The notes under the pieces: model-generated
What the model was told of the DNA's origin: nothing
The model's database searches: none
Seen by the model: the letters and a program-made list of their open reading frames with translations, nothing else
Shown here: piece after piece, positions 5,032 to 64,000 of the stretch
Layout of the letters: every line of letters starts with the position of its first letter
Numbering within the stretch: position 1 is the stretch's first letter
Assembly (NCBI GenBank): GCA_004123355.1
Contig: SCHM01000003.1
Location: 3,305,058-3,369,057, forward strand
Direction of reading: 5' to 3'
DNA length: 64,000 bases
DNA from: Amphirosellinia nigrospora
Lineage: Eukaryota; Ascomycota; Sordariomycetes; Xylariales; Xylariaceae
Position numbers and translations under genes: made by a program

Positions 5032-5964
5032 ATGGCCGCGAAACGCACGGCAGTCCCTGACGCCTGGGATGACGACGACTGGATAGCCAAGGCTGACAAG
5101 CCGGCGGTGGCGGCGAACCTAGAGCAACACGGAGAGTCGCAAGCGCCAATGACCAGGGCACAACGTCAGGCGCAACATGCGGAATCGAATAAAAAACTTT
5201 GGCAATCCGCGTAAGTATTCGACCGAAAACCAAATCGCAGGGGCGCTTTCACCCTTCTCGGACTCGGATCAGCTGACGAACCGTTCTGCATGCAGCGAAA
5301 CGCCTCCGGAGCCCTTCCACTTTCTCGCTGCGCGTTCCGAACCGCCTCTCGCGACCGAATTTAAGCCAGCTGTCAAGGTCCTAAGCCGCAAACCCGCGCC
5401 CAAGATGATCACGAAACGGGACCCTCTGACCGGTGCGCTCTCGCAGCTTAAGGTGGACGACGAAGACTCGGACGAGGAGAAAAACAAGGTCCAGCTGACC
5501 CCGAGGAAATCCGCGCAAAGCAGCAGCGGGAGCGCGAGGAGAAGCAGCGCCGATATGAGGAAGTCAGAGCTAAGATCTTTGGCACGACCCCCGCTGCGTC
5601 TGGCTCAGGGGATGGATCGAATCTTTCGTCGGGGACGTCTACACCGGGAAATGCTACACCACCTAGGTCAATACCTGATGGGCGCGCTTCACGGGTCGTG
5701 GTAGGGGCCGTGGGGGCACCGACATAATGATAGCCGGGCCGACAGCGGGAACGGGCAACGGCCAGGAAGCCAGTCCGGGCCGAATGGACGAGAACTATGA
5801 TCCCCACTACTCCCCGAAGCCTGGTTTTCCGCTGGAGAGGAGGGGCGGAGGAACACCGTCTCTGGTCGGTCTACGCCACGGGATGAGGACCAAGTCATTC
5901 GATCGCCAAGAGGCCTGATGGAAACAGTAGAGGTTTTGCTAAACGTGGTGCCAAAGCTCCTTGA
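5032..5964 (+). CDS. SUZ-domain RNA-associated protein
   Basis: Seen: start MAAKRTAVPDAWDDDDW; intron 5211-5295 (85 bp); then EPFHFLAARSEPPLATEFKP, the SUZ-type segment with KVQLTPEE and RYEEVRAKIFG, a Ser/Gly/Thr-rich stretch, an RGRGRGG patch, and a C-terminus GNSRGFAKRGAKAP ending at 5964. Known: SUZ domains are short conserved RNA-binding motifs in proteins of mRNA handling; SUZ-C motifs often close them. The frame breaks near 5499-5502 (C run), 5693-5695 (G run) and around 5905-5917; the first two are each repaired by one added base. Protein about 283 residues if repaired. Its stop is only 41 bp from the NAR1 stop on the other strand. Upstream ATGs in other frames (such as 5177) are shadows. 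Confidence 0.75.
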
Positions 5965-6005
5965 AAATCTTCCGAATTGAAGGTCTATCTCCTAGGTAAG
6001 GCTGG

Positions 6006-7708
6006 CTACCAGCCACCGCCGATCTTGCTAGCGAGTTGAACGACCCGTTCGGTATCATTCGTTTTGCTCTTACCTACATCACTAATGACCTCGCGGTAGC
6101 TGGTCGATACCAGCCTGTCTATGTCTATGCCAGTTACACTACTCCAGTGCGCCAGGGTATCTTGATATGTTGGAGAAATATTGCCAATTAAATCACTTCT
6201 TACCCCTCCAATCTTCTCTACGCCCTCGCCGATTTCCGACTCGCTTTCTTCGGCCGAGAAATAGGCTTCATCTACCTCAGCAAGCCACTCTTTCTGCTCT
6301 TGGGGCCTGGCTGGAACCCTGCCCCTTTGCGTTCAATAACCAGAGGATCGTCGACTTTGATTTGACCCCCATTGGTACATCCGCCAGGACAAGCCATGAC
6401 TTCGACATAGTCGTATTCCGGGCTAGTCGACTTGCCAGCAGCTTTTCTGGTAGCGCCAACAGCCCTCGCACCCGGCATACGTGATGGCCGAGCGGGCTTT
6501 AGTTTCCGAACCAAGTTCTGAATATTTCGGAACCCGTAATATCGCGCAGCCTGAATAATGTGCCAGAGGCTGATATTACTGAAAATTCTGCAACGTCCAC
6601 ATTCCTACACGAGTGTTCAATTCGTGACCCTGGATGCTGAGACGCAATGTATTGCAGCGTGTAATATAGATTGCCCCGGACGTGCCTGCAGCGGCATCTA
6701 GCCGGCCGCCTGATGTGACAGGAAAATGAATTCCTGTATAATAGAATCAGGGAAGGGGATACGTGACGAGGTTGGAATTGATTCTTTAGGTAGACTAAAG
6801 AAATCAATACCTCTTGACTCTGTCAACATCAGGATCTCTTGCTTGTGATAACGCAGTCCACGTCACGAACTCCCCTACCCGGCTGGCCATTCCATTCCAG
6901 ACGAGTCCGTCAATTCTTCCGGCTAGCCTCTAATTTCTTGTCGAAGCATGGCATTACAGCAAGGTGCCATATCCGATCTGGAGATATGCTAGAGTTCGAC
7001 TTAAGCTCGTCTTCAGCAGCGTACCCATCAACGCCTGTGGTGATTTGACTTTCGAAATATGGGGCAGGACATATGGATGGCACACCCAGCCCGGACAACT
7101 TGACGATAAGATTGGCTTTGTGACTTTGCGGCTACCACTAACCTCCTCGGCGCCAAGCACTAGACACTGCCCGGGCCGCATTCGTGTCTGTCACCCACGT
7201 GAATGCGTTGTTCCATTTCCCGCCGCTCTCAATCCATCCCTGCCTGCTAATAATTGTGTGATCATGCGCCCGGCTGCTCGTTTAGTTACACCCTGTCCGC
7301 CGGCGGCGGCAAGACTGGCGCGTGTCTGGGGCGAGATACTAGCTACGAAGAGCTTGCTATCGGGGTTCTCCAGCCCTTCGACCTTGAACGCTCCATCTGC
7401 GCCATCGCGCCGTATGTAGTGCGGGAGCCTGATCTAAGACGGTCAAGAGCTCGTCATGGCTCTGTAAACTGACGAGAACCGCTTCGGCCGAGGTTACGCA
7501 GCCGGAACAGGCCAGACAGTCTGTTAAGGAGATCTGTGCTGGCGCGCCCGCTGCCGGCGGCGGGGTGCTGCCCGTCGAGAACCACTTCATATTCGAGCTC
7601 GTCATCTTCCGGTTTCGGAAACGCAGGCAGCGTCTCGACCGGCTTGATACATGCGACGCCCGGAGAGATAAAGTCGTTGAGATCGTCGGCGGAAAGAATG
7701 GCGGACAT
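6006..7708 (-). CDS. NAR1: Cytosolic Fe-S cluster assembly factor Nar1
   Basis: Seen: start [20 protein letters not shown] at 7708 with Cys20; DCLACSGC (N-terminal 4Fe-4S ligands) near 7520; [57 protein letters not shown] near 6400; and the family's terminal Trp (KIGGGW) before the stop at 6006. Known: Nar1 is the iron-only-hydrogenase-like protein of the CIA machinery, linking cluster assembly on the scaffold with the targeting complex; it carries two 4Fe-4S clusters in the cytosol and is essential in yeast. No intron is needed. Odd: several frame breaks, e.g. at the G run 7562-7565 and others around 6500-6900 and 7100-7400. All cluster cysteines survive in one frame or another, so I take the breaks as sequence errors. 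Confidence 0.9.
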
Positions 7709-62219: not shown

Positions 62220-62510
62220 ATGTGTATGAAAGCTAACTGCAGTCAATGTGGTATGTTTTATCTCACCTTCCTTTCCCGTGACAGATGCATGTTGGTCTGG
62301 CCCAGGTTACACCAGGGTTTTGTTTTACTGGGGCTTATACTCTAGCGATGCCGGCGTTACTTACTGACCCGCGAAACAGGAAAGACGTCGTGGCAGGGCT
62401 GCGGTGCCCACGTCGCCGCGGTGTTAGATTTGGTCCCGGCAGACCAGCTGTGCACCTGTCAGCCCAAGTTCGAGTCGAACGGCAAGGAGTATCCGCCCAA
62501 GGCCAAATGA
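62220..62510 (+). CDS. 53-residue cysteine-rich protein, probable zinc binder
   Basis: Seen: ATG at 62220, MCMKANCSQCGKTSWQGCG and AADQL-like LVPADQLCTCQPKFESNGKE, ending PPKAK at 62510. Exon 1 is 31 nt; intron 62251-62379 (129 bp, GTATGT..CAG) splits the Gly codon straight after CSQC. Cysteines at 2, 7, 10, 18, 35 and 37 form CxxC and CxC pairs suited to one zinc site. No frame break. Known: short proteins starting MC.K..C..C.K..W.GCG.H recur across fungi, but I know of no assigned function. No membrane segment or signal peptide. Its small size and the intron inside the cysteine motif make it easy to miss in automatic annotation. Confident it is a real gene. Confidence 0.85.
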
Positions 62511-62994
62511 CGGTTCCCTTGGTCTTTCTGGTAGCCTCACCAACTGCCCGGGGAAAAAGAAGGCCAGATTGTCCGTCAATCGCCTAATGATTTGGGCTCG
62601 ACCGCTTCTGGCGGCAATCAATATGATGGGCACGTATTTCGTGGTTAGGCATGTTATAAGACTATCTACGGAGAACTGTCAAATGGACTATGTGGGCGTG
62701 GGAGGCGGATGGTGTACAAATGATCGGGCGGTACCAATGGCATTGATTTCAATTGAGATGCTAATTTTCTATGTCTATAAAGCAACGGACCCCACCCCTT
62801 CGTCTCTTGAATGTAAAAGTTCATGATCTCACTCCGATAGCATGATCCGTAGCTTTAACTCCTTTTCGCCCTCCAAATGCTCCCCGCTCGGCGCCACGCA
62901 TAGCCTCTATAGCCTTGCAGTAAGAATTGTAATATGGTCTATACCGCCTCATTTCTATGTATTGTATTGTATTGGTTTGTGCCCGCCTTCGAAT
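62511..62994. other. Interval between convergent genes
   Basis: About 480 bp between the cysteine-rich gene and the oxidoreductase. Nothing supportable in it. Confidence 0.4.
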
Positions 62995-64000
62995 CTAGAT
63001 CTTGGTGTTCTTCGCCCAACCAGCTCTATGGTATTGGTTGGACCATTAACCTCTACGTCAAGTTGATGAGCAACGCGTAAGGGAAACTCAGGTTCACGGA
63101 GGTACTGTCGAGCAATGAGCACGATATCGGCCTTGGGAACTAGGCCGTCTCCTTCCTGGACGATATCCCGCGCCATCTCGCCGGTAGTGATCATACCGAC
63201 GGCGCCGAGGAAGAGCTTGATGCCCTCCTTCTGCAGCGCCTCCCGGATCTGACCCGCTAGGTCCACTTGGTAGTACGGGTGAACGTTGATTTTCTGAGCC
63301 TCGTTGTTACCGCCCGAGCTAACGTCCAGAAGGTCGATACCGGCGGCCGGAAGCAGCTTAGCCAGCCGGATGGTGTCCTCGATTGTCCAGCTGGTTCACC
63401 AGCATGCTCCATCCACTCGGTCGCCGAGATGCGCAGGAACAAAGGCATTGAGGCGGGGATGACCTCGCGCACAGCCGCGATTGTCTCGAAGAGAAGCCGA
63501 GTCCGGTTCTCGAAGCTACCCCGTACGCATCCGTTCGCTTGTTCGTGAGGGGCGACATGAACTGCGAATATAGATAGCCGTGAGCGCCATGGATCTCGAT
63601 GGTGTCAAAGCCGGCCTCCACGGCCCGCCGCGCAGAATCCCGGAATGCCTGCAAGATCTCCTTGATGTCTTCGGCGGTCATCTCCTTGGGCTTCACGTAC
63701 TCGTCATCGGCCGCGGAAAAGCTGATGGAGCTCGGCGCCCAGACGTTATCCGCCCAGCCGCCGTGCTCCTTTGACGCGACGATGCCGTGTTTCCCGCGGG
63801 GCATCAGCCATGGGGCGAGTACGCTGGCCTTGCGTCCGGCATGTCCTAGCTGAATACCGATCTTCTGGCCTTGGGAGTGCGCAAACTCAACGGTGCGCTT
63901 CAGCGGCGCAATCTGGCTGTCCTTCCATAGACCGCTATCCCTGACCCGGGTGTTAGAGACTACCACTTATAGAGTAAAGACTTGGCCTGTGATTCATGGT
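62995..64000 (-). CDS. Old Yellow Enzyme-type NADH:flavin oxidoreductase, partial at right edge
   Basis: Seen: [60 protein letters not shown] helix ([11 protein letters not shown]), the substrate-site [73 protein letters not shown] and [16 protein letters not shown]. The HGAHGYL motif and GAVGMI phosphate loop are typical of YqjM-class FMN enzymes, which reduce activated alkenes with NAD(P)H. The N-terminus lies beyond the right edge, past an exon boundary near 63960. The frame breaks near 63370-63400, 63510 and at 63045-63046 (AA on the coding strand); repairing the last gives a usual YqjM-like ending [11 protein letters not shown] and a stop at 62995. Natural substrate unknown. Confidence 0.9.

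Follow-up and report, generated by a model that had tools for sequence, protein, structure and literature searches.

The frame breaks that run through conserved genes of the Amphirosellinia nigrospora assembly GCA_004123355.1 are, with a probability that we put at about 85%, consensus errors left in a long-read assembly that called runs of identical bases short, and not biology. Frame changes between adjoining pieces of conserved genes carry a missing-base sign, are spread over several contigs and fall in genes without a second match in the genome, and the same signature is seen in the 5S and 18S/28S genes.

The assembly comprises 48,114,038 bases (48.1 Mb) in 11 contigs, the largest one seen being 13.8 Mb. 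Its rRNA is eukaryotic and, together with its genes, suggests a filamentous fungus. The window, that is, the whole stretch of DNA analysed here, covers 64,000 nt of contig SCHM01000003.1 (C5 in our contig numbering, positions 3305058-3369057).

Frame breaks in the window

Gene regions of the window were translated in the three frames of the gene strand, with stops written as X, and compared with Pfam. The features discussed below are as follows (window positions).

63057..63945, minus strand, Old yellow enzyme gene (OYE; PF00724), Pfam pieces in three frames with breaks at about 63520 and at 63392-63404
6365..7145, minus strand, Fe-hydrogenase domain (PF02906) of a NAR1-like gene, spread over three frames, with a break near 6995 that is short by a single base (Pfam and own-genome search)
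51922..53524, minus strand, RTG2-like gene with Ppx/GppA and RTG2_C matches split among three frames (Pfam)
5153..5701, plus strand, SUZ-domain gene, with a domain piece at 5479-5589 in a frame other than that of the open stretch 5153-5701
18572..19215, plus strand, GRX4-like gene, thioredoxin piece (18572-18847) and glutaredoxin piece (19021-19215) in different frames
12516..15030, minus strand, ABP1-like gene, ADF piece and first SH3 domain in one frame, second SH3 domain in another
42281..43589, minus strand, SEC20 gene, Pfam domain at 42674-42946 unbroken and in one piece
61329..61493, plus strand, pyroglutamyl-peptidase piece, PF01470 match spanning an in-frame stop at 61401
23806..27262, minus strand, calcium-channel-like gene, Ion_trans pieces in several frames, absent from the list of breaks in the first-pass annotation

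By Pfam, the clearest case in the window is OYE. Its PF00724 match is continuous through model positions 68-195, 196-233 and 234-340, yet these lie in three different frames, at 63945-63520, 63520-63404 and 63392-63057; both frame changes leave gaps below intron size, and the first frame also matches solved flavin oxidoreductases in a phmmer search. In NAR1, positions 64-115 and 117-154 of PF02906 are found at 7130-6996 and 6993-6841, in different frames and with no room for an intron, and in the own-genome search the second piece comes out short by a single base. This break, near 6995, is not at a run of bases. Further along the gene, in the stretch from 6841 to 6556, an intron is possible.

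Judging from the translated pieces, the RTG2-like, SUZ, GRX4 and ABP1 genes are likely to be broken as well, though introns between the pieces are conceivable; in GRX4 the frame difference may reflect an intron in the linker. The SUZ match scores below the curated Pfam cut-off. The ADF match of ABP1 does not begin until position 26 of the model (14877), a short way downstream of two sites at which the first-pass annotation had located breaks (14910 and 14964), both of them runs of five C. At the site that it had given for the RTG2-like gene, a run of four G at 53056-53059, one frame stops 12 nt downstream and another stays open. The frame changes of the calcium-channel-like gene may be frameshifts, introns or both, and a pyrophosphatase gene in the window, equally absent from that earlier list, fits an intron-size gap.

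The first-pass annotation had described single-base frame breaks in nearly all conserved genes of the window, and its substance holds although the extent was overstated. Two of the sites that it named are not upheld. At 63045-63046 in OYE the frame has no stop over 349 nt on the upstream side and 88 nt on the downstream side, and the breaks with homology support in this gene (around 63520 and 63398) were missing from its list. For pyroglutamyl-peptidase, no homology lies near 60891-60892, the PF01470 match being at 61329-61493 instead; the in-frame stop within that match, at 61401, could reflect an intron or errors that compensate one another, or it could be a genuine stop codon. The listed zinc-finger, membrane-protein, C6, HMG and SEC20 sites, the last of them in the N-terminal part of the gene (43411-43413), received no confirmation by homology and nothing against them, and the C6 regulator region gave no Pfam match. 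The run at the 14 listed positions is five bases long in two cases, four in four, three in four and shorter than three in four, with the GRX4 position known only approximately ('about' 18981).

Breaks in conserved families across the genome

Searches of the whole genome returned 25 pieces of CCT/Hsp60, 20 of HSP70 and 25 of actin, which fall into 31 clusters with 39 junctions between pieces. Intron-size gaps account for 14 of these junctions, another six are in the same frame or unclear, and 19 are frame changes. After five loose frame changes were dropped (three in the actin family and two in the CCT gene at C1:6115480), 14 tight junctions remain. All 14 are short of bases, by one base in 11, by two in two and by four in one (sign test, P = 0.00012); if the two junctions short by two are counted as gains, the missing-base sign weakens to 12 of 14 (P = 0.013). 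The tight junctions are located on contigs C1, C4, C5, C6, C7 and C8, so the damage is not confined to one region. The junction short by four, in an HSP70 gene (C7:1399918-1399927), lies outside any homopolymer, in what by eye resembles a short imperfect repeat.

These junctions bear directly on whether the frame changes are simply overlooked introns. The intron-size gaps at 14 of the 39 junctions, and the one that the pyrophosphatase gene of the window fits, are what such a reading would predict, but there is no room for an intron at any of the 14 tight junctions, nor at the OYE and NAR1 breaks. As a general explanation introns are refuted by the tight junctions and we give them almost no weight; single listed sites may still be introns.

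Among nine CCT/Hsp60 clusters, a tenth that is partial and divergent being left out, five carry a tight break, one has an unclear junction (C4:2608698) and three have none. The statement that almost every conserved gene is broken is thus too strong, as three of nine CCT/Hsp60 genes are without a break. Six HSP70 clusters enter the rate, four shorter or divergent ones being set aside; of the six, four show a tight break, one forms a single piece and the last is unclear. Together the two families give 12 breaks in 21.9 kb, or 0.55 per kb, a figure that counts visible frame-changing losses only.

NAR1, CCT and actin are essential in yeast. That essential genes are hit along with others, as had been proposed from the window alone, is borne out by the tight breaks in CCT, HSP70 and actin-family genes and by the break in NAR1. 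Intact second copies of NAR1 and SEC20 had been named in advance as one half of what would speak against assembly error, and no second match to either was found in the genome at E<=0.001: the NAR1 search returned three pieces, all of the same gene, and the SEC20 domain match was the sole one.

It could be supposed that the breaks are genuine deletions in a relic or hypermutator region or genome, and the deposited sequence does carry them. Such decay is very improbable in view of which genes are affected, namely CCT, HSP70, actin-family genes and NAR1, the last with no second match; intact copies elsewhere were not found for NAR1 and SEC20, the two genes searched in this way, and the damage spans several contigs. 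The rDNA copies described below, which differ by indels with 0 mismatches, also stand against it. Gene decay does not fit because essential genes are affected and because rDNA copies differ without mismatch.

5S and rDNA copies compared without reference to reading frame

Repeated non-coding genes provide comparisons that are independent of any reading frame. Rfam at gathering scores gave no match within the window, and ARAGORN (bacterial code) reported 0 tRNA genes in the window and 0 in 34 loci, which leaves tRNA copies unusable for this purpose. 5S genes were found in at least 33 places among 47 scored of 2127 candidates, and 30 loci were aligned. Of the 21 single-base gaps relative to the consensus, 18 fall in runs of three or more bases; expressed as density, there are 18 gaps in 720 run bases and 3 in the 2880 others (3600 in total; p=1.6e-10). 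Four gaps are longer than one base. The 30 aligned genes contain no single-base insertion, and one copy has a two-base insertion. A run of five C is only four long in 9 of the 22 copies in which it is read uninterrupted; one further copy was not read there and in seven a substitution splits the run. Seven copies (L022-L028) are identical except at this run.

The 5S genes are spread over many contigs and fall into two or more sequence types separated by about 14 substitutions or more. Substitutions among the copies may reflect genuine variation within the gene family. In three copies the short C run goes together with 14 shared substitutions, and in these three the variant may be real and not an error.

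The tandem rDNA gave a second comparison. 5.8S genes lie in at least three places on contig C10 among 39 scored of 1190 candidates, and the three stretches compared are designated L068, L069 and L070. The alignment of L068 with L069 spans 3504 columns and has 0 mismatches and six gaps. L069 carries four of these gaps and L068 the other two, and five fall in G or C runs that are 5-6 bases long in the longer copy. L069 and L070 align over 1901 columns with 0 mismatches and five gaps, and no difference separates L068 from L070 over 1900. At one gap, situated in a run of two, the shorter form is the one that two of the three copies have. In the 18S core, L068 has six G, an arrangement to which the Rfam model aligned gap-free, and L069 has five. 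Working rDNA copies are not expected to vary in run length only, inside the 18S core. The changes between copies are indels with no substitutions, the form that run-length consensus error takes.

Within the 18S gene of this array there is a group I intron (RF00028; L068:5621-5956). In addition, a 151-nt stretch of the 18S region (L068:4643-4792 and 5251-5401) shows 94.7% identity to a second place in neighbouring rDNA copies, and the match suggests two putatively related inserts.

The first-pass reading, undercalled runs in the assembly, is therefore supported by two frame-independent tests, the 5S and the rDNA copies. They also bear on a further possibility, that genuine breaks are overcome through programmed -1 frameshifting or RNA editing. 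The observed sign, one base short, would suit frameshifting of this type. The same losses are present in the untranslated 5S and 18S/28S genes, for which translation-level explanations cannot account. A density of about 0.55 sites per kb is also far above that of any programmed frameshifting known to us. We regard this account as having next to no chance of being correct.

Sequence context of the losses in coding DNA

For the context of coding breaks, 17 junctions were taken together: the 14 tight ones, one from NAR1 and two from OYE. A run of at least four bases lies within 15 bases of 8 of the 17, compared with 23.7% of 2000 random positions drawn from five CCT genes, and the mean longest run is 3.47 at the junctions versus 3.04 at random positions (resampling p=0.027). 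The excess of runs at coding junctions is modest, and losses occur outside long runs too. The other 9 junctions are not at a run of this length.

A frame-switching path through a codon model, trained on 233 kb of the same genome, was applied with 100 kb of Escherichia coli K-12 as a control. With a penalty of 8, the middle setting, it found 19 frame changes in 29.5 kb of predicted coding sequence (14 missing-base and 5 extra-base) versus 7 in 67.2 kb in E. coli (4 and 3). At a penalty of 10 the counts were 11 (28.7 kb) here and 4 (67.2 kb) in E. coli, and at a penalty of 6 they were 28 (30.6 kb) and 31 (70.0 kb); the contrast with E. coli hinges on the penalty chosen. The intron calls of this model are untrustworthy, 22 having been made in E. 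coli at a penalty of 8.

Relative to Markov chains whose training sequence was the window itself, run-length counts in the window show no deficit of runs of six or more, a comparison that is uninformative at best. The run table of the window has a conspicuous single C run of 15 and a single T run of 12, with few other runs longer than nine.

About half of the coding junctions are away from runs of at least four bases, which makes an assembly error of another kind the chief rival to run-length error: mainly random loss of single bases, as might come from thin coverage or from another long-read platform. The 9 of 17 coding junctions away from such runs and the four-base loss inside a short imperfect repeat speak for it. 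The losses in 5S and rDNA, by comparison, are strongly concentrated in runs, and we consider predominantly random loss unlikely, if clearly the most serious of the competing explanations. A narrower idea, that a minority of the coding breaks outside runs (for example NAR1 near 6995 and the four-base HSP70 junction on C7) exist in the DNA itself and are bridged when this fungus expresses the genes, appears highly implausible.

Discussion

The explanation that we favour, runs called short in the consensus, would operate as follows. Short runs, mostly of G or C, would be reported one base (sometimes more) too short, and some bases would be lost outside runs too. The underlying data would be nanopore-type reads assembled with no polishing by accurate reads; the error type and the contiguity of the assembly together point to this unpolished long-read origin. 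Indels concentrate in runs strongly in 5S and rDNA and modestly at coding junctions, and coding DNA, non-coding DNA and single-copy essential genes are affected alike.

Error of the same kind is already in print for fungi. In long-read-only nanopore assemblies of Drechmeria coniospora, the available text of the report states that the majority of 305 conserved genes fell short of full length, the full-length share being given as '... than one-sixth' of them, that the errors were mainly homopolymer errors cured by short reads, and that completeness scores hide the damage (PMC7500977). As far as that text goes, the two cases are alike in being fungal long-read-type assemblies whose conserved genes are broken in a homopolymer-linked way; they differ in that the polished versions there erred more by insertion, whereas losses dominate here (PMC7500977). 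Nine nanopore assemblies of Rosellinia necatrix are likewise fungal and similar in size, at 48.2-49.9 Mb, with BUSCO scores of 68.2-82.5%, and the main text of that report, in its available part, does not contain the words 'polish', 'racon' or 'pilon' (PMC10796067). An 11-contig version made with Hi-C is described there with a BUSCO score of 97%, 49.1 Mb, 45.46% GC and a largest contig of 7.1 Mb, unlike the 13.8 Mb seen here (PMC10796067).

Within a single assembly, comparing rDNA copies with one another, and dispersed 5S genes likewise, offers a read-free check that reveals run-length error without recourse to coding sequence. Completeness scores based on similarity can mask such errors, as described in part of the report on another fungus (PMC7500977). 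With a visible loss in roughly every 1.8 kb of conserved coding DNA, a gene of 1.5 kb would have about an even chance of carrying a break. Gene models, pseudogene counts and claims of gene loss drawn from this assembly of A. nigrospora would be wrong for a substantial fraction of genes.
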